Source: Deltaproteobacteria bacterium (GTDB lineage Bacteria > Desulfobacterota_B > Binatia > UBA9968). From it: DNA of 19,476 bases. How positions within the stretch are numbered: the stretch's first letter is position 1; each line of letters starts with the position of its first letter. Shown here piece by piece: positions 10,947-17,828 of this stretch. The notes under the pieces are model-generated. The model was not told the DNA's origin and ran no database searches. It was given only the letters and a program-made list of their open reading frames with translations. A program made the translations under genes and the position numbers. Where the stretch lies: positions 1 to 19,476 of the forward strand of contig VBKY01000223.1 in NCBI GenBank assembly GCA_005879255.1, written 5' to 3'.

Positions 10947-11375
10947 TTATTCGCCTTTCGCCGGGGTGAATTCCATTTTGGTGAGAAAGTTCTTCTCGCC
11001 CTTGGTGACGTATTCCACGTTTGCGGACGACCCGAGCCCCACATCGGCCATCTTAACCTTGGTTTCCTTGATCTCCGTCGCCTTGGTCTTCGAGTTGAAA
11101 TCCAAAGTAATCAATTTGCCTTCTTTGGTGACGACGATCATATAGTTCTTTTCGGTGTCCAAAAGGCCGATATCACCCGTCACCTTCTCGGCCTTGGCCT
11201 TGGCCGGTTCGCCTTCTGCTTTGGCCTTAGCTGGCTCACCTTCTGCTTTGGCTTTTGTTGGTTCGCCGCCTTTTTTTGCCTCCTCGGCTTTCTTCTCTTG
11301 GGCTGCAACTGGAACCATCATAACCGCCGCTAGTAACACAGCCAGCCCCCAGACAACCTTAGTTTTCCCTCTCAT
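10947..11375 (-). CDS. Small secreted protein with GLLDTEKNY domain, copy A1
   Basis: 142 residues, function not recognised. A Sec signal peptide (basic start MRGKTK, hydrophobic core, likely cut at PVAA|QE) leads to a Lys/Ala/Glu-rich linker. The linker carries about three copies of a nine-residue unit (EGEPAKAKA). The C-terminal 75-residue domain (DIGLLDTEKNY ... VTKEGKL ... VGLGSSA ... PAKGE) looks all-beta. Its alternating pattern (G-x-I-x-x-LD, I-V-V-x-x-x-EG, TK, DVGLG, V-x-Y) resembles small OB-like or DUF5666-like beta barrels, which is inference only. Copy A2 matches it at 69 of 75 domain residues. A strong AGGAGG precedes the ATG at 11375. It is second in a minus-strand pair behind lipoprotein B1 and has its own terminator. 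Confidence 0.88.
   Translation of the reverse strand: MRGKTKVVWGLAVLLAAVMMVPVAAQEKKAEEAKKGGEPTKAKAEGEPAKAKAEGEPAKAKAEKVTGDIGLLDTEKNYMIVVTKEGKLITLDFNSKTKATEIKETKVKMADVGLGSSANVEYVTKGEKNFLTKMEFTPAKGE
11194..11274 (-). repeat. 27-bp tandem repeat, three units, within A1
   Basis: Units at 11194-11220, 11221-11247 and 11248-11274, each beginning TTGGC on the plus strand; the third diverges toward its end. Each codes for a nine-residue Ala/Lys/Glu/Pro unit in the flexible linker after the signal peptide. The paralogue A2 has only one unit, so the array expanded or shrank after duplication. Confidence 0.8.
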
Positions 11376-11427
11376 TTGTATTCCTCCTGAATCGTTATTA
11401 GCGCGCTATCTATCCAAGAGCGTTTTG

Positions 11428-11845
11428 TTACTCGCCTTTCGCGGGTACGAATTCGATATTTGTTGCAATGCTCTTGTCGCCCTCTTTGGTGTACTGCACA
11501 ACCGCCGACGAGCCCAAGCCGATATCAGTCACTTTGGCTGGTACCGGTTCTTTCTGTGTCGGTTCATACTTCGAGTCAAAGTCGAGGGTAACGAGCTTCC
11601 CTTCCTTGGTCACAAGGATCATGTAGTTCTTCTCAGTGTCCAACAGACCCACGTCGCCCGCGAGCTTGGTCGCCTTGGCTTTTTCTGCAGCCTTTTCCCC
11701 CGGAGCCTCTTTGGTTTCCGCTTTAGCCGCAGGGGCTGGCGCGGGTGCCGCCGGCTTCGGTGCGGGGTTAGGTGCCATTTCCTCTTGGGTCGAACACGCC
11801 GATAGCCCGAACATGACAGCCACTGCTGCTGCGCAGACTTTTCAT
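11428..11845 (-). CDS. Outer-membrane lipoprotein with GLLDTEKNY domain, copy B1 (apparent frameshift at the start)
   Basis: A lipoprotein paralogous to B2. The lipobox is LSAC in FGLSACSTQEEM; +2 Ser suits outer-membrane sorting by Lol. A Pro/Ala-rich linker and the same C-terminal domain as A1, A2 and B2 follow (VGLLDTEKNYMILVTKEGK ... IGLGSSAVVQYTKEG ... PAKGE). The good ribosome site GGAGGG (11849-11854) and ATG (11843-11845) are out of frame: the run of four A on the minus strand (11839-11842) puts the body of the gene one base off. With three A the gene would read MKVCAAAVAVMFGLSAC, a normal lipoprotein signal like that of B2. As written, the only in-frame start is a GTG at 11823 with no ribosome site. 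A sequencing error or a real mutation are both possible. Function unknown; it precedes A1 by 52 bases. Confidence 0.82.
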
Positions 11846-11887
11846 CTTCCCTCCGTACACCGCAAAATATGCCTTGAATAGCGACGA

Positions 11888-11916
11888 TATTTATCGTGAC
11901 CTTCACGTCATCTCAA
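11888..11916 (-). promoter_or_regulatory. Possible promoter of the B1-A1 cassette
   Basis: On the minus strand TTGAGA (11911-11916), 17 bases, TAAATA (11888-11893), about 45 bases before the B1 ribosome site. The -10 matches consensus only partly. A small CGATA/TATCG dyad (11885-11896) covers the -10. Confidence 0.35.
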
Positions 11917-11968
11917 TACGCTTTAGGTATGATTTTTTGGCTGGCAGGAGTAGCTTATTTCGATCTGC

Positions 11969-11986
11969 CTAGGACTAGAGTCCTAG
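11969..11986. promoter_or_regulatory. Palindromic operator-like site, DosR/DevR type
   Basis: CTAGGACTAGAGTCCTAG: two 8-base arms around a 2-base centre. The core GGACT-NN-AGTCC has the same halves and spacing as the known DosR/DevR box (GGGACT-WW-AGTCCC), which is bound by NarL/LuxR-type regulators. It lies between B1 and the response regulator, about 70 bases upstream of the regulator's predicted transcription start, and could control either direction. The following CCCC and five T would also allow a weak plus-strand hairpin terminator or attenuator as an alternative reading. Confidence 0.5.
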
Positions 11987-12013
11987 TCCCCTTTTTGGCA
12001 ATCCGAATATAGA

Positions 12014-12042
12014 TTGGCAAGTGGAAAACTTTGAGTTATTTT
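12014..12042 (+). promoter_or_regulatory. Probable promoter of the two-component genes
   Basis: TTGGCA (12014-12019), 17 bases, TATTTT (12037-12042), giving a leader of about 33 bases before the regulator ATG at 12082. Both hexamers match consensus at four or more positions. Confidence 0.45.
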
Positions 12043-12081
12043 GATCAAAGGGCATAGCAATCGGAAAAGGAGAAGCTATTG

Positions 12082-12744
12082 ATGACTCCGATCAAAGTCG
12101 TAATCGCTGATGATCACGCGTTGTTTCGCGACGGGCTGAGGAAAATCCTTTCCCTTGAGAAGGATATTTTGGTTGTCGGAGAAGCCGCCAACAGTGAAGA
12201 AGTCCCAAAGGTCGTGGAACGGACAAAGCCAGATATCCTTCTCCTGGACCTAAAGATGCCCAAAGGGGACGTCGTCCAAAACCTTCTCGATGTCGCTGCC
12301 AGAAACTCGACGACTCGCGTGATGATTTTGACGGCATTCTCGGACGACGAGAGTGTTTTGAACGCAGCCAAAGGAGGAGCAAAAGGTTATGTCCCGAAAG
12401 GCGTGCCGTCGAGCGCGTTATTGCAAGCAATCAGGGCCGTGCACAATGGCGGCTCCTGGATCGACAAAGACATTTCATCATGGGAGACTTTTGAAGAAAT
12501 CGTCCAAGGCAATGCAACCTCTCGCGACGGGATGCCAAAACTCGATGACAGCATTAAGACGCTCACCAAACGAGAAATGGAAATTTTAAGACTGGTCGCT
12601 GAAGGGCTCACCAATGAGGAGATCGGAAAGAAAATATTCATCAGTGAAAAAACCGTCAAAACACATCTGACCAACATCTTCGACAAACTCAAAGTCAATA
12701 ACCGCTTCAAAGCAGCCCTAATGTTGATGGGACATCCGAGCTGA
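12082..12744 (+). CDS. NarL/LuxR-type response regulator
   Basis: A 220-residue two-component response regulator. The receiver domain has the acidic pair Asp10-Asp11 (IADDHALFRDGL), the phospho-acceptor Asp56 (ILLLDLKMP), Thr84 and Lys106 (GYVPKGVPS). A linker of about 50 residues leads to a LuxR helix-turn-helix: LTKREMEILRLVAEGLTNE, then EKTVKTHLTNIFDKL as recognition and following helix. The recognition helix keeps EKTVK, as in DosR/DevR, which agrees with the DosR-like palindrome upstream. I chose the ATG at 12082 over the TTG at 12079 because GGAGAA (12069-12074) is seven bases from it. The kinase gene follows after 69 bases and is the obvious partner. Confidence 0.94.
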   Translation: MTPIKVVIADDHALFRDGLRKILSLEKDILVVGEAANSEEVPKVVERTKPDILLLDLKMPKGDVVQNLLDVAARNSTTRVMILTAFSDDESVLNAAKGGAKGYVPKGVPSSALLQAIRAVHNGGSWIDKDISSWETFEEIVQGNATSRDGMPKLDDSIKTLTKREMEILRLVAEGLTNEEIGKKIFISEKTVKTHLTNIFDKLKVNNRFKAALMLMGHPS

Positions 12745-12813
12745 GCCGCATGGAGGAATGAGGAGGAAAGACTTCTCTAAGCGCCGCTTCAGTAACACGC
12801 GCTTAGAACGCCC

Positions 12814-14028
12814 ATGGCCACAGTGGAAAAGATTACGCCTGAACAAGGATGGCTCCTGCAAAGGGAAAGAGCCGTCGCTTGGCTTCGAGTGGCGTTTGCC
12901 GCGGTCGCCGTCCTTGTCATTCAGTTCAATCCCGAAAGCGTGGCACGCTTTCCTGAGCTATCGTCTTTTTCACTGGGAACATTTCTGCTGTACAGCTCAA
13001 CCGTTCTCTATTTCACTGCACGCAAAAGGGGCACTTCCTCGCCAATCAGCGTCTTAACCACCGGCCTTGATGTCGTGTGGATTGCGGTCATCGTTTTTTC
13101 CACTGGCGGGACGCACACACCGTTCTTCTTCTATTACTCCTTCCCTGTGATTACCGCGAGCGTACGCTGGGGACTTAGAGGCAGCATTCCCGTTGCGCTG
13201 GTGGGTGTCGGCATCTACGGCATTATTCGACTCACCTTGGCAGCTGAGGCGATGGAATCGCCGATCGGTATCGATACGATCCTGATCCGTAGTCTTTATT
13301 TATTATTGCTAGCCGGAATCTTTGGTTACATTAGCGAATTCGAGAAGAAACAAAATGAGAGACTCCTGGCTCTATCGAAAACGGCCGCCCAGGCGGCGAC
13401 ACTGCGGGAACGCCGAAGGATTATGTATGAGCTGCATGACGGGATTCTTCAATCTTTGGCCACGTTGATCCTGCGATTGGAAGGTTGCCGGGGCCGCCTC
13501 TTAAAAACCCAGACAGAATTGGCGGAAGAAATCGAATCGGTGGAAAATCTCACGCGAGATTCGATGAACGAGATTCGTCAGTTCCTCGCGGGCAAAGATA
13601 GCCAACCTATCGCAAGCGGGATGCTGATGGATAAACTACTCGAAGAGATGCGCTTCTTGCACGAAGGCCTGGGACTGGATGTTATTTTAGAAAGCCAACC
13701 GGAAAATCTGGCACTGCCTGCAGTTATTGAAAGAGAGACATACTATGTTCTCCGCGAAGCGTTAACCAACGTCACCCGACACTCCCACGCGTCGCGGGTC
13801 GAAATTCAGCTAGAACAGATGAACGGAACGCTCAAAGGTTCGTTGACGGATGACGGCGTTGGTTTTAATCAAAAGAACTTAAGGACTGAAACTGGATTTG
13901 GCCTAAGCGGGATGCAGCAGAGAATGAATAAACTCGGAGGCGAACTTCTTGTTGAGTCCTCCCCCGGTTACGGAACAAAAGTATCTTTCGTCGTCCCAAC
14001 CGCAGTGCCGGCGGAGCTTTCCAATTAG
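12814..14028 (+). CDS. Membrane sensor histidine kinase, HisKA_3 (NarL-partner) class
   Basis: 404 residues. The N-terminal about 180 residues carry five to six hydrophobic segments with short loops and no large periplasmic domain, so sensing probably occurs within or at the membrane (DesK-like arrangement). Next come a short coiled coil, then the HisKA_3 dimerisation helix RERRRIMYELHDGILQSLA with phospho-accepting His208. The ATPase domain has the N box (YYVLREALTNVTRHSHA), the G1 box DDGVGF and the G2 box FGLSGMQQRM. All catalytic blocks are present. This class pairs with NarL/LuxR regulators, matching the gene just upstream. No ribosome site precedes the ATG at 12814, and an in-frame stop lies 21 bases upstream, so the start is forced unless a frameshift exists. 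The stimulus is unknown. Confidence 0.93.
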   Translation: MATVEKITPEQGWLLQRERAVAWLRVAFAAVAVLVIQFNPESVARFPELSSFSLGTFLLYSSTVLYFTARKRGTSSPISVLTTGLDVVWIAVIVFSTGGTHTPFFFYYSFPVITASVRWGLRGSIPVALVGVGIYGIIRLTLAAEAMESPIGIDTILIRSLYLLLLAGIFGYISEFEKKQNERLLALSKTAAQAATLRERRRIMYELHDGILQSLATLILRLEGCRGRLLKTQTELAEEIESVENLTRDSMNEIRQFLAGKDSQPIASGMLMDKLLEEMRFLHEGLGLDVILESQPENLALPAVIERETYYVLREALTNVTRHSHASRVEIQLEQMNGTLKGSLTDDGVGFNQKNLRTETGFGLSGMQQRMNKLGGELLVESSPGYGTKVSFVVPTAVPAELSN

Positions 14029-14081
14029 GTTGCCCGCGCCAGCAAGTCTAAACCCCGCCCTCTCGATTCATCGACGGTCAG

Positions 14082-14459
14082 TTACTCGCCCTTGGCTGGG
14101 GTGAATTCCATTTTGGTAAGAAAATTCTTTTCACCCTTTGTTACGTACTCGATGCTGGCGGAAGAGCCGAGTCCGACATCCGTCATTTTCACTTTCGTTT
14201 CTTTGATCTCGGTGACCTTGGTTTTCGTATTGAAATCCAGCGTCACTAATTTACCTTCCTTGGTAACGACGATCATGTAATTTTTTTCAGTGTCCAACAA
14301 GCCGATATCCCCGGCGACCTTTTCGGCCTTGGCCTTCGCCGGTTCCGCTCCCTTCTTTGCGTCATCCCCTTTCTTTTCTTGGGCAACGACTGGGGCTGAC
14401 CAAGCCGCCGCGAGCAACATTGCCGTTCCACACGCAACCATTAATAATCTCGATCTCAT
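14082..14459 (-). CDS. Small secreted protein with GLLDTEKNY domain, copy A2
   Basis: 125 residues, function not recognised. A Sec signal peptide (MRSRLLMVACG ..., likely cut at PVVA|QE) is followed by a short charged linker with a single EPAKAKA unit. The same 75-residue C-terminal domain as A1 follows (DIGLLDTEKNY ... KEGKL ... DVGLGSSAS ... PAKGE). I chose the Met at 14459 rather than 14504 because GGGGAGGGAG lies directly upstream of it. It is the second gene of a minus-strand pair; the lipoprotein gene B2 ends 48 bases before it. It converges with the kinase gene across 53 bases with no recognisable terminator. Protein and linker suggest a soluble periplasmic partner of the lipoprotein (inference). 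Confidence 0.88.
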   Translation of the reverse strand: MRSRLLMVACGTAMLLAAAWSAPVVAQEKKGDDAKKGAEPAKAKAEKVAGDIGLLDTEKNYMIVVTKEGKLVTLDFNTKTKVTEIKETKVKMTDVGLGSSASIEYVTKGEKNFLTKMEFTPAKGE

Positions 14460-14507
14460 TTTTCTCCCTCCCCGTCGGTAAACTAAATATTGTAAACCAA
14501 CCATTTA

Positions 14508-14924
14508 TTACTCGCCCTTGGCCGGGACGAATTCGATACTTTGCGCGACGCTTTTTTCACCCTGCTTGGTATATTGGACAACGGCCGACGATCCTAGGCC
14601 GACATCAGCGACTTTCGCATCGTGTGGGGTTTTTTGGATTGCTTGGAACTTCGTATCGAAGTCAATGGTAACGAGTTTACCTTCCTTTGTGACGAGAATC
14701 AGGTAATTCTTTTCCGTATCCAGAAGCCCGATATCGCCGGCGAGCTTCGTGGCTTTGGCTTTTTCTGGTGCCTTTTCCGTCGGGGCTTTGGCCTCTGGCG
14801 CCGGTGCAGGCGCCGCAGGTTTAGGCGCGGGCTTCGGTGCCATTTCTTCCTGTGTCGAACACGCTGACAAACCCAACATCAACGACGCGACGGCGATTCC
14901 GCCAACTGCAGATGCAATTCTCAT
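14508..14924 (-). CDS. Outer-membrane lipoprotein with GLLDTEKNY domain, copy B2
   Basis: A 138-residue lipoprotein, function not recognised. The signal is MRIASAVGG plus a hydrophobic core, with lipobox LSAC (Cys22) and +2 Ser, which predicts outer-membrane location via Lol. A Pro/Ala/Lys linker of about 40 residues (KPAPKPAAPAPAPEA) probably spans away from the membrane. The C-terminal domain follows (IGLLDTEKNYLILVTKEGK ... VGLGSSAVVQYTKQGEK ... PAKGE). I chose the Met at 14924 (GGAGG at 14931-14935, six bases away) rather than the first in-frame Met at 15005, which would bury the signal and overlap the promoter. It leads the B2-A2 pair. It is the intact counterpart of B1 and shows what B1's start should look like. 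Confidence 0.9.
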   Translation of the reverse strand: MRIASAVGGIAVASLMLGLSACSTQEEMAPKPAPKPAAPAPAPEAKAPTEKAPEKAKATKLAGDIGLLDTEKNYLILVTKEGKLVTIDFDTKFQAIQKTPHDAKVADVGLGSSAVVQYTKQGEKSVAQSIEFVPAKGE

Positions 14925-14975
14925 TTTTTTCCTCCGTAAGTAAGACTTTGGTCGAATATTATCTAGATCACGAGT

Positions 14976-15005
14976 CGTATACTTTACGTTGCGTTGTCTT
15001 GTCAA
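14976..15005 (-). promoter_or_regulatory. Probable promoter of the B2-A2 cassette
   Basis: On the minus strand a perfect TTGACA (15000-15005), 18 bases, TATACG (14976-14981), about 40 bases before the B2 ribosome site. No DosR-like palindrome is seen nearby, unlike in front of the other cassette. Confidence 0.5.
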
Positions 15006-15098: not shown

Positions 15099-15670
15099 TT
15101 AGGATGAAGGGCGGCCGCGAGCTTCCACAAAGCGATCCCGGCGATTTTTCTCGAAGCAGTTTTCAGTCGATTCTTTGCACAAGGGCAGCTCCTCGCCGTA
15201 ACTCGTGGTCCTTATCCGGGCAGCTGGTATGCCGAGCGAGACCAGATAATCAAGAGCAGCACGCGCCCTCTTGGCGCCCAGGGCCAGGTTATATTCCGTG
15301 GTTCCACGCTCATCACAGTGGCCCTCGATCTCGATGTTAGCCGAAGGATTGGCTTTCAGCCACGCCGCGTTGGCCTGTAAAATCGATCGAGCTTCGGAAG
15401 TCAAATCGTAGCTATCAAATCAAAACGAATTTCTTTCAGCGGCCCAGATGCCAGCCCTTTTCCCTCACGGAGGGCGTCCAAGCTGGATCCTAATTGACTC
15501 TGGCTAGAAGAGCCCGACGATTTGGCCGTCGATACCTGCGCAGAAGAAGCAGAGAACTTTGGTGAGGCCGAGCTTTCCGGTTTCTTTGCGGTCTCCGATG
15601 CGCAGCCGGCAATAATAACCAAAACGCCCAGCATGAAGACGCAGGATCCAATCTTCGTTTTCGCTGTCAC
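15099..15670 (-). pseudogene. pal: Peptidoglycan-associated lipoprotein Pal, split by a one-base deletion
   Basis: Pal anchors the outer membrane to peptidoglycan. The 5' part gives a lipoprotein signal (VLVIIAGC, Cys23, +2 Ala), a Ser-rich linker and GPLKEIRFD. The reading then ends early at 15401. The 3' part, one frame over, gives SYDLTSEARSILQANAAWL, the peptidoglycan-binding EIEGHCDERGTTEYNLALG and RTTSYGEELPLC. Pal proteins read 'FDFDSYDLT' at the junction, so one base is missing near 15414-15421 (the AAA of ATCAAATC should be AAAA). Apart from this the gene is full length. The best start is the GTG at 15670, with GGAGG at 15680-15684; a TTG at 15694 is the longer alternative. No tolB or tolA lies beside it. 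A sequencing error is as likely as true loss. Confidence 0.85.
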
Positions 15671-15713
15671 AGACAGCGACCTCCAACCTTGCAAAATCGC
15701 GGGTTTGAGCCTT

Positions 15714-15742
15714 TTACTACACTCTAAGAACTATAATGTCAA
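15714..15742 (-). promoter_or_regulatory. Probable promoter of pal
   Basis: On the minus strand a perfect TTGACA (15737-15742), 17 bases, TAGTAA (15714-15719), about 30 bases upstream of the GGAGG of pal. The -35 is strong and the -10 moderate. Confidence 0.45.
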
Positions 15743-15780
15743 TCTAAAGTCGTATAATCGATCCCCAGCTGGACTCTCGC

Positions 15781-15879: not shown

Positions 15880-17424
15880 CTAGAACGTATATCTCCAGTT
15901 GAGCATCACATCCACCCAGTCACCGCCGATGCCATTTCGACAACCCGTCGCAGGTGTCACATGAGGCGTATTGCAAATCCCCAAGTTATGCGCAGCTTGG
16001 TTTGCGCCAGTACGCAGATTAGCCGCGTCGTACCACAACACACTTGTTCCCACACTCATGCGCGGCGCGATGAAATACCAAAGATCCCACTCACGCAGCA
16101 GGATACGGTTTCTGTGGAACTGCCCCAAGTGCCCGAGAGCACTGGCGGGGATATTCAGGCCCGCGGCCGTACACGGAATACCTGTACTACCATTACAACC
16201 CAACGACATATCGGCGCGCTCAAAGTGGGTGCCAACCAAGATCGAATTTGGGGTCGTGGCCGAGCCGGTCAAAAATCCCTTCGGACTCCACAAGAAGAGA
16301 TCGTGGCCAATTAAGAAGTTATGCGCCCTTTTCTTCCCCCTCTGGCCGCCGCGGTCTTCGCTCTCTTCGAACGAACCCATCGCGCGTAAAGTGTAGGGCC
16401 CAACGCTGTACACGATGCCCGGACCGTGCGCTCTGGTAAGACCGTCACCGATGCTGCCGGCGCCCGTGTCAAACAAAGTCTGTCGGCCCCCGTCGCCGTG
16501 ATCTTGGATGCGAAATCGGTCGCAGCCATTTTCTCTGGCTCGGTTATCATGGTTACAGAACCATGAGCCGTACTCGAACGTCAAACCGCTGAGCCATTTG
16601 TTCTTGACCTGCGAGAAAGGCTGAATGCTCAGATAAACATTGAAATCTTTGCGATCGGTGAAGCTCTGCAGACCATCGTCGCCTTCGGCGATACTGGACA
16701 TACCTACCTGGAATTTGCCGATTCGCCCAGGAATGCCAATGTCGGTGAGAGACCGATCGTCCCAGTTGAGTACGATGCCTGAGCCAGCGCGGCCAGTGTT
16801 AAATCCGTTGTTGCGGGTGAGAAGGTCATACTCTGCCTGCGCGCCGACTGAACCAGAACCCTGCCTGGCCAAGCTGCCGCCGCCGGCGTTCTGCACTTCC
16901 ATACCGAACTGCACAGTCGGCAGCCACGGGTTTAGGTTCTCCGCATGAAAGTTCACCGCGCCGCGCTGTAGAATCGAACTAGTGGAGGTGTTGGTCGAGT
17001 TTTTGGCGTTACCTGTTCCCCAACCGTCGAGGTCAAGCGTCGCCTCGATTTCCCACAAACAGTTGTTGACGCAGTAAAGGAATCCAGGCCGAAACCGTCG
17101 CCCCATCATCTCGCCGTTACTGCGCCCGATCTGGTCGCGTCCAGATTCAAAGAGGTAACGGAAGTGCGTCTCAACGGTGAAGCGCACGCCCCACGATTTA
17201 TCCGCCGCCTCGATGTTCAGTCCGTTACCCGGACGGTAACTGAAGCTCGGCATTGCCTGCGCCGCCGTTGTCGCCTCTTTCTTCAGCTCGATCTGCTGCT
17301 CTTTTAACTGTAAAAGCTCTTGCTCGAGCGACTTGATCCGATCATCGACGCTCTGGGCTCTCACTGTTCCCGCAGCTAAAAGGAAAACAGCTAGCACGCT
17401 CAACGCCCAAAACCGTGTCTTCAT
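15880..17424 (-). CDS. Outer-membrane porin with N-terminal coiled coil
   Basis: 514 residues. A Sec signal peptide (MKTRFWALSV ..., cut near VRAQ|SV) is followed by a short coiled coil (about residues 26-52, DRIKSLEQELLQLKEQQIEL). Such a coil is typical of trimeric porins of the OprP/OprO phosphate-selective and DcaP-like groups. The rest is amphipathic beta strands with Gly/Asn/Asp-rich loops, and the last residues NWRYTF end in Phe, the BamA recognition signal. Substrate choice cannot be read. Unusually for a porin it has eight Cys, in four close pairs: 118/122, 290/301, 410/418 and 484/495. AGGAGG precedes the ATG at 17424. It is a single-gene unit with its own promoter and a strong terminator. 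Confidence 0.88.
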   Translation of the reverse strand: MKTRFWALSVLAVFLLAAGTVRAQSVDDRIKSLEQELLQLKEQQIELKKEATTAAQAMPSFSYRPGNGLNIEAADKSWGVRFTVETHFRYLFESGRDQIGRSNGEMMGRRFRPGFLYCVNNCLWEIEATLDLDGWGTGNAKNSTNTSTSSILQRGAVNFHAENLNPWLPTVQFGMEVQNAGGGSLARQGSGSVGAQAEYDLLTRNNGFNTGRAGSGIVLNWDDRSLTDIGIPGRIGKFQVGMSSIAEGDDGLQSFTDRKDFNVYLSIQPFSQVKNKWLSGLTFEYGSWFCNHDNRARENGCDRFRIQDHGDGGRQTLFDTGAGSIGDGLTRAHGPGIVYSVGPYTLRAMGSFEESEDRGGQRGKKRAHNFLIGHDLFLWSPKGFLTGSATTPNSILVGTHFERADMSLGCNGSTGIPCTAAGLNIPASALGHLGQFHRNRILLREWDLWYFIAPRMSVGTSVLWYDAANLRTGANQAAHNLGICNTPHVTPATGCRNGIGGDWVDVMLNWRYTF

Positions 17425-17480: not shown

Positions 17481-17509
17481 TTTTTAGCCTAAGTGGTACG
17501 ACCTGTCAA
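17481..17509 (-). promoter_or_regulatory. Probable promoter of the porin gene
   Basis: On the minus strand a perfect TTGACA (17504-17509), 17 bases, TAAAAA (17481-17486), about 57 bases before the porin ATG. The spacer is itself one unit of a tandem repeat, which suggests regulation at this promoter. Confidence 0.55.
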
Positions 17510-17526
17510 GCCTAAAGTTGTAGACC
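17487..17526. repeat. Imperfect tandem repeat, period 23, in the porin promoter
   Basis: GCCTAAGTGGTACGACC (17487-17503) and GCCTAAAGTTGTAGACC (17510-17526). They share 15 positions if one base is gapped in each. The first unit exactly fills the -10/-35 spacer and the second abuts the -35. This is possibly a repressor or activator operator pair. Confidence 0.5.
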
Positions 17527-17828
17527 AGGCAAAAATATTTAAGCTATTGGTAGGTGCATCTGGGCTATTTGTCGAATATACCCCAATATTCCAAGGCTAA
17601 GGTCGTACGTCTATCCGCCATCCGGGATGAGTGATTTCAGCTATTTTCCAATTACTTAGCTCCTGAAGGGGTTGACATGTCTGTTGTTCGTCCCTGGGGG
17701 AGCTTCATGCCCTTCCCGCCTCCACGTAACTAGGCGACAGAAACTCTTCGTTGACTCATTTTCAGTAGTGATTAAAGGGCACTCGAACTTGTGAACCCGG
17801 TAGGTGTTCGTTAGAGTCTTCTCTACCA

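Follow-up and report, generated by a model that had tools for sequence, protein, structure and literature searches.

A candidate two-component switch between duplicated lipoprotein and secreted-protein cassettes in one group of Binatia

Contig VBKY01000223.1 of the Binatia assembly GCA_005879255.1 (19,476 nucleotides, hereafter the window) carries two copies of a gene pair, each encoding a lipoprotein (B) and a soluble secreted protein (A), on either side of the genes for a NarL-type response regulator (RR) and a membrane histidine kinase (HK). We consider it probable that this locus is a dedicated two-component envelope switch, which would exert opposite control over the duplicated cassettes and also act on unlinked envelope genes. 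We favor this reading because the RR lies between the cassettes, both cassettes share one candidate site, that site occurs in two geometries, and it recurs at unlinked paralogues. In the proposed mechanism, the membrane-embedded kinase, with its RegB-like membrane domain, would phosphorylate the NarL-type regulator, which would bind the inverted repeat TAnGACTnnAGTCnTA. At cassette 1 (B1-A1), the RR would bind about 70 bp upstream of the transcription start and activate a promoter that has no -35 box; at cassette 2 (B2-A2), it would bind over the -10/start and just downstream, repressing an otherwise strong promoter. The cell would swap one B-A pair for its paralogue, each made up of a lipoprotein and a soluble protein whose DUF5666-like domain is presumably a small beta fold. 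The same RR would control an unlinked DUF5666-like protein of 94 amino acids (aa), Pal in some genomes, and porin-like proteins.

The gene order and the duplication can be read directly from the DNA. An initial annotation, made from the sequence alone, had described two minus-strand B-A cassettes flanking a plus-strand regulator and kinase, and all six genes were recovered in that arrangement (Table 1). The two cassettes align at the DNA level over 872 columns with 69% identity (E 2e-102); the duplication is therefore not due to chance. All four proteins share one C-terminal domain, as had been noted; over its 76 residues in the window, identity is 92% between A1 and A2, 76% between B1 and B2, and 61-62% between A and B.

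To describe the distribution of the family, we searched whole genomes with an A/B profile, which matched 21 of 148 genomes of the class at E<=0.001. One match, in G172, was borderline (E 9e-4) and was set aside, leaving 20 carriers. In a phylum-wide sample of 148 genomes, four matched: the centre genome G002, G048 (E 3e-21), G124 (9e-8), and G156 (5e-4). As far as the contigs reach, and with some genes inserted or missing, a recurrent order was found, referred to here as the island: Pal/OmpA lipoprotein, B2, A2, HK and RR on the opposite strand, B1, A1, DksA, RimO, LolA, FtsK, and RNase J. A/B genes flank HK-RR on both sides within one contig in the window and in 13 of the 20 carriers (G002, G003, G004, G005, G007, G010, G012, G013, G275, G276, G279, G281, and G284). 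Among the remaining seven, G011 is two-sided over two contigs, G282 has cassette 2 only, and five have contigs that end too early to judge (G001, G006, G008, G009, and G277). A query with the HK membrane domain matched 17 of the 148 class genomes at E<1e-25, all of them among the 20 carriers; in the other three carriers, the island contigs stop before the HK. The next match stood at E 1.4e-22 with 31% identity; the 24 genomes that gave only weaker matches include no carrier. The A/B-HK-RR family does not extend beyond a single group of Binatia. Recurrence beside NarL-type kinase and regulator genes, which the initial annotation had suggested checking across genomes, was thus found within this group but not across phyla.

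The candidate RR site is a 16-bp inverted repeat that is new in this analysis. Its sole zero-mismatch match in the window, TAGGACTCTAGTCCTA (11970-11985), lies between the divergent RR and cassette 1, its centre preceding the cassette-1 GTATTG by 58 nt. Nineteen upstream regions were taken as cassette 1, one of which (L110, from G282) has no cassette 1 and was set aside; all 18 others contain the repeat with at most 3 mismatches of 12. The distance from its centre to the conserved GTATTG is 55-58 nt in 15 of them and 48 nt in L111, and in L012 and L117 the centre lies 30 nt before CTATTG. If transcription starts ~12 nt after the -10, these distances correspond to about -70, -60, and -42, which are usual activator positions. 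TTGAC is absent from 17 of the 18. At cassette 2, TTGAC stands 22-23 nt before GTATA in all 15 promoters, the repeat overlaps the -10/start in every one, and a second copy follows 20-26 nt further on in 14. These positions suggest that the cassette-1 repeat sits at an activator distance and the cassette-2 repeat at a repressor position, and from this geometry we infer the sign of each effect. In L110, the spot beside the RR reaches a best score of 2.2 with the matrix described below, and cassette 2 keeps its sites; the loss of the repeat together with cassette 1 in G282 fits a dedicated switch. A constant distance between the repeat and the RR's own promoter was also sought, and this distance proved variable.

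If the RR instead drove both cassettes in the same direction, the duplication would serve dosage or redundancy rather than exchange. The shared candidate site at both cassette promoters would agree with this, as would the near-identity of the A1 and A2 domains in the window, which suggests the same function or recent conversion, and the reduction of cassette 1 to A alone in several genomes. The position of the site, however, consistently differs, at about -70 without a -35 box in one case and at the -10/start with a good -35 in the other, and both arrangements recur in tandem porin-like gene pairs in G007 and G012. We therefore regard control in a common direction as somewhat unlikely.

We scored upstream regions with a matrix built from 14 distinct cassette-1 sites, excluding the window. 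These training sites were the best matches in their region, so that their own scores are not evidence, whereas those of other promoters are. All 15 cassette-2 promoters scored 11.2-19.3, compared with a best score of 7.6 among 95 control upstream regions (Mann-Whitney p 3e-10, phylogeny not corrected), and the score of any one cassette-2 promoter was reached by at most 2 of 200 Markov copies. The controls were taken upstream of the DksA, RimO, LolA, FtsK, RNase J, HisF, GcvT, SSB, and HK open reading frames. The seven best sites of the window are two at cassette 2, two at the porin-like gene, and one each at cassette 1, Pal, and the RR start, and this concentration at the genes in question is directly visible. 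Seven window sites score >=8; 60 Markov copies average 1.5 such sites, and one copy reached 15.5. When TAnGACTnnAGTCnTA was matched at <=3 mismatches, the window gave 7 matches against 3.5 expected, and 17 of 200 shuffles reached 7; the count alone is therefore unremarkable, and placement carries the argument.

Exact matching across 19 genomes yielded 9 sites against 1 for the reversed control: five at cassettes, two before the SBP_bac_6/TctC genes on the G011 island contig, one before the 94-aa gene of G001, and one before a porin-like gene of G012. With a stricter pattern allowing one mismatch, 10 of the 22 sites in 16 carriers lie in the island, one each in 10 genomes, and 16 class genomes without the family have 9 sites compared with 33 for the control. 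The promoter-like element of cassette 1, MTACNTAAAGCGTATTG, matched 29 times at <=2 mismatches in the 20 genomes. Fifteen of these matches have the repeat (<=3 mismatches) 36-39 nt upstream, or 29 nt in G284; they comprise the porin-like genes of G007 and G012 and 13 islands, the latter by construction, as the element was derived from those islands. In the 14 remaining cases, the closest repeat carries 4 to 7 mismatches, and the distances are scattered. Neither the near-match repeat pattern nor the element is enriched overall; the pairing of the two marks just these promoters, and only placement and pairing are special.

The repeat also stands before genes outside the island. In G001 and G277, off-island repeats precede the genes of orthologous 94-aa secreted proteins by 79 bp; DUF5666 is the best Pfam match of these proteins, at a score under the cut-off (E 4e-4 and 4e-3). 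A search of the 20 genomes for this protein gave 8 matches with 5 scorable upstream regions, in which the repeat lies at 77-80 bp. The scores are 21.9 and 17.1 in G001 and G277, where the genes were found via the repeat, and 11.9, 7.0, and 12.0 in G012, G013, and G007 (the last a distant match), where they were found without it. Off-island sites in G003 and G012 precede porin-like genes. This porin-like family gave 21 matches, of which 18 were taken (three start-less fragments omitted) and 16 scored; 10 of the 16 upstream regions reach 11.2, or 8 of 14 once L142 and L143, found via the repeat, are left aside. Promoters of the cassette-2 type, TTGACA-N17/18-TAAAAG followed by the site, occur in L136, L145, L148, and L138, and with TACAAG in L139, while those of the cassette-1 type, the repeat followed by the cassette-1 element, occur in L149 and L142 and as a variant in L133. 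The tandem pairs of G007 (L136 and L149) and G012 (L148 and L142) contain one promoter of each type. At Pal and several 94-aa upstream regions, the site abuts or overlaps TTGACA, near -40. Further off-island sites (L084, L088, L091, L094, and L096) lie in or near unrelated genes. The porin-like protein of the window has no Pfam or PDB match; its family comprises 1050 clusters at E<=1e-10, with several paralogues in some carrier genomes.

In G011 (L014:2850-4256), the repeat occurs four times (<=2 mismatches) before SBP_bac_6 and TctC genes, between HisF and Pal. In this genome, the regulon may therefore extend to a tripartite tricarboxylate transporter.

The initial annotation's NarL-type regulator and membrane kinase were confirmed by profile matches. 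The window RR matches PF00072 and PF00196 above cut-off, corresponding to a receiver plus a GerE (LuxR-type) helix-turn-helix, and its nearest solved structures are VraR, NarL, and DevR. The HK matches PF07730 (HisKA_3) and PF02518, and its nearest solved core is DesK. That we infer the RR to be the repeat binder, and that DksA, RimO, LolA, and FtsK are also syntenic without an evident functional link, leaves room for another NarL-type or unrelated regulator to bind the repeats, with HK-RR as a syntenic bystander. The site, however, lies between the divergent RR and cassette-1 genes, and in L110 it is missing from this spot and kept at cassette 2. Moreover, the helix-turn-helix tail of the RR, F187-L214 (its recognition region), does not vary among the 16 regulators aligned, and inverted repeats suit NarL-type dimers. 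A bystander role is in our view very doubtful.

The N-terminus of the HK is hydrophobic with short connections and has no space for a periplasmic domain. For the N-terminal ~190 residues of three HK orthologues, ActS/PrrB/RegB was the best NCBIfam match in all three (E 4e-4, 2e-3, and 6e-4); the window HK scored 39.2 bits against NF033792 (RegB/PrrB family), below its cut-off of 350. An excerpt of PMC8191878 gives GGXXNPF as the quinone motif of RegB-type kinases. The HK stretch TGGTHTPFF resembles it: among 14 aligned HKs, PFF is found in 14 and GG in 11, and the N position is occupied by T in 13 and A in 1. Cys225, located 17 residues after the phospho-His and present in 13 of the 14 aligned kinases, could be a redox switch. 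The signal of the HK is probably the redox/quinone state or another membrane property.

The A/B proteins might alternatively be a periplasmic input that binds a ligand and signals to the kinase, with the RR feeding back, and the initial annotation had allowed for a pair sensed in this way. Their strict neighbourhood and co-occurrence with HK-RR are compatible with such a role, and a lipoprotein plus a soluble protein is a common layout for ligand relays. A kinase with no room for a periplasmic domain and with a membrane domain whose best match, though weak, is RegB argues against sensing, as do the DUF5666-like genes with the same repeat on contigs other than the island contig, and we consider it quite unlikely. 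A and B are most simply outputs rather than a sensed partner, and the 94-aa protein would likewise be an envelope output. The other possibility raised in the initial annotation, that the pair is a target of the two-component system, appears well supported, if not proved, by the conserved repeat before both cassettes and before unlinked relatives.

Lipobox and secretion signals were assessed by pattern and by eye. B1 and B2 carry the lipobox LSAC, and A1 and A2 have a hydrophobic N-terminus without a lipobox. Among 56 rows from the window and relatives (two unlabelled), 24 of the 25 B proteins show the pattern, as does one of the 29 A proteins through a chance match within the signal. The C-terminal domain of ~76 residues has 27 invariant columns in a 36-sequence alignment, which omits L004 cassette 1, L003 A1, L015 A2, and the L006 and L009 fragments.

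None of the window proteins A1, B1, A2, and B2 matched DUF5666 (PF18914) at E<=1, and no Pfam model matched them above cut-off. The A/B profile, however, matches an L048 protein (E 8.9e-8) that itself passes the DUF5666 cut-off (27.9 vs 27), and hhalign aligned the A/B profile with the family of this protein over 110 columns (probability 97.3, E 2e-11). By this profile comparison, the A/B domain is a divergent relative of DUF5666, reached via an intermediate; the earlier remark that it has no named family holds for the window proteins at Pfam cut-offs but gives way through the intermediate. Run directly on 8 genomes, the DUF5666 model gave sub-threshold matches in 4 and none over the cut-off. 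Titles and abstract openings of the literature found name no role for DUF5666. The domain has thus led to a family without a named role in these sources, and the two-component link recurs within the one Binatia group; the initial annotation would have abandoned its proposal had the domain belonged to a known family whose defined role is unrelated and had no such link recurred.

The domain also gives a CusF-like signal, weaker than the DUF5666 relation. A and B might alternatively be periplasmic metal (Cu/Ag) chaperones of the CusF kind. The metal ligands of CusF are His/Met/Trp residues. Trp occurs in 0 of 53 A/B domains and His in 1 of 53; the CusF metal ligands are therefore absent. The A/B-only profile found no PDB chain even at E 10, and a chaperone role of this kind is highly improbable.

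A tree of 53 domains over 77 columns (3 of 56 rows were dropped by a length or motif filter) left many forks unsettled. The A1/A2/B1/B2 labels require 14 changes on it against a minimum of 3, which suggests repeated duplication or conversion and settles nothing. In a protein search, the A/B family reached 6064 clusters at E<=0.001 (the best 120 listed), and it is therefore abundant in public sequence; among the matches listed, one that bears the name Candidatus Binatia agrees with window A2 at 99% across 89% of the length of A2. A more general tie between DUF5666 and two-component systems was also considered. Outside the carrier group, DUF5666-like secreted proteins were seen near NtrC-type regulators in L119 (G172, a weak relative) and L120 (G124). 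The regulator is adjoined by a HisKA kinase in G172 and by a phage integrase instead in G124. The DUF5666 relative of G048 is not near an NtrC-type regulator, and the repeat is absent upstream of the G048 and G124 DUF5666-like genes.

Two of the genes in Table 1 have irregular reading frames in the window. At B1, the conserved ATG that has a ribosome-binding site lies at 11843-11845 and does not share the frame of the conserved B1 coding sequence, whose sole opening is a GTG that leaves a very short signal; either the gene is frame-shifted or the sequence carries an indel (11823-11845). The two Pal frames (15401-15694 and 15099-15404) overlap, and relatives are intact (e.g., L005:9036-9599). 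The starts of A2 and B2 were set inward of the longest open reading frames, at ATGs agreeing with relatives.

Table 1. Genes, predicted promoters and proposed RR sites of the locus and its neighbours, in window coordinates
Feature	Position	Strand	Basis or score
A1, secreted soluble protein of cassette 1, 142 aa, DUF5666-like C-terminal domain	10947..11375	-	Open reading frame, alignment, no lipobox, profiles
B1, lipoprotein of cassette 1, conserved frame opened by GTG	11428..11823	-	Open reading frame, alignment, lipobox
Promoter-like element TCATACCTAAAGCGTATTG of cassette 1, GTATTG taken as -10-like, no -35 box	11914..11932	-	
Inverted repeat TAGGACTCTAGTCCTA, proposed RR site of cassette 1	11970..11985	.	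0 mismatches, score 21.3, best in window
RR, NarL/FixJ-type response regulator	12079..12744	+	PF00072, PF00196
HK, multi-pass HisKA_3 histidine kinase, RegB-like membrane domain (TGGTHTPFF), DesK-like core	12814..14028	+	PF07730/PF02518
A2, secreted soluble protein of cassette 2, 125 aa	14082..14459	-	Open reading frame, alignment, no lipobox
B2, lipoprotein of cassette 2, 138 aa	14508..14924	-	Open reading frame, alignment, lipobox
Proposed RR site of cassette 2, downstream of predicted transcription start	14941..14956	.	2 mismatches, score 15.6, second best in window
Proposed RR site of cassette 2, weak copy overlapping -10	14964..14979	.	3 mismatches, score 8.2
Sigma-70-like promoter of cassette 2, TTGACA-N18-TATACG	14976..15005	-	
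Pal/OmpA-domain lipoprotein, split over two frames, syntenic neighbour, possible regulon member	15099..15694	-	PF00691
Proposed RR site before Pal gene, abutting its TTGACA	15739..15754	.	3 mismatches, score 10.5
Porin-like outer-membrane protein, 514 aa, possible regulon member	15880..17424	-	"Porin-like" by inference
Weak proposed RR site in promoter of porin-like gene	17507..17522	.	3 mismatches, score 10.4
Second weak proposed RR site upstream of porin-like gene	17592..17607	.	3 mismatches, score 9.1

Several observations weigh against a dedicated switch. The family is confined to one Binatia group, and descent therefore explains part of the linkage. Many control upstream regions lie inside neighbouring genes and are not all true promoters. 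In the 16 carriers, the 22 sites of the one-mismatch pattern are fewer than the 32 of the reversed control, and the 29 matches of the cassette-1 element are fewer than the 46 of its reversed pattern. At cassette 1, GTATTG is not a canonical -10, and L105 does have TTGAC. At cassette 2, L108 has one repeat copy only, and the weaker copy scores 5.2-8.2 in the window, L002, L004, L005, L011, and L111. Among nine Pal upstream regions, four score >10, three 5.5-7.9, and two lower. Six of the 16 porin-like upstream regions, including that of the G282 island porin, have no site, although at least L134 and L141 among these six have mis-called starts. Finally, the RegB-like matches of the kinase are weak, at E 4e-4 to 2e-3.

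If the locus is a dedicated switch, a broader picture can be put forward tentatively. This Binatia clade may use a "mirrored pair" design, in which envelope genes are duplicated and one promoter is opened and the other closed by the same membrane-redox-sensing two-component system. Sets of DUF5666-like and porin-like proteins would be exchanged in one step, and the DUF5666-like proteins would be periplasmic partners of the porin-like proteins. The locus provides a testable regulon, with a site, regulator, kinase, targets, and predicted signs, for a bacterial group described in an excerpt of PMC8262859 as yet uncultured. It would also connect the DUF5666-like secreted proteins, for which a role has yet to be explained, with exchange at the outer membrane. 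Literature searches on Binatota two-component systems with lipoproteins and on the CusF/OB fold with unknown-function domains returned nothing, and a search on paralogous lipoproteins under two-component systems returned, by title, Borrelia only.

Parts of the system resemble known ones. Like LiaRS, VraSR, and DesKR, it combines a multi-pass HisKA_3 kinase that has no periplasmic domain with a NarL-type RR, but its apparent regulon is made up of porin-like genes together with mirrored envelope cassettes. A LiaF-like partner did not appear, although no profile search aimed at LiaF was made. The multi-pass membrane domain with its GGxxxPF-like motif recalls RegB/PrrB/ActS, from which the system differs by T in place of N in GGXXNPF, the HisKA_3 (DesK-like) core, and the NarL-type regulator. 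With DUF5666 and the CusF-like small beta-barrel proteins, the likeness lies in the profile-profile match to a family with a DUF5666 member and in the best Pfam match of the 94-aa relatives; the window proteins, however, have no Pfam match above cut-off, and the CusF metal ligands are absent.

In EnvZ/OmpR, one two-component system sets opposite OmpF and OmpC levels through differently placed sites. The present locus would apply the same logic to paralogous envelope proteins, a likeness that lies here in site geometry only. Its RR, in contrast, is of the NarL/FixJ type with a GerE helix-turn-helix rather than an OmpR/PhoB winged helix, its kinase is of the HisKA_3 type, and among the genes exchanged are small secreted pairs of the DUF5666-like kind on either side of the regulator. 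Excerpts of PMC3050692 and PMC10581057 describe, respectively, the differential control of OmpF and OmpC and a duplicated ompF in Dickeya. If the mirrored promoters behave as predicted, the locus would be an independent counterpart of the OmpF/OmpC switch that uses a NarL-type regulator and came about through duplication of the cassettes on either side of it.

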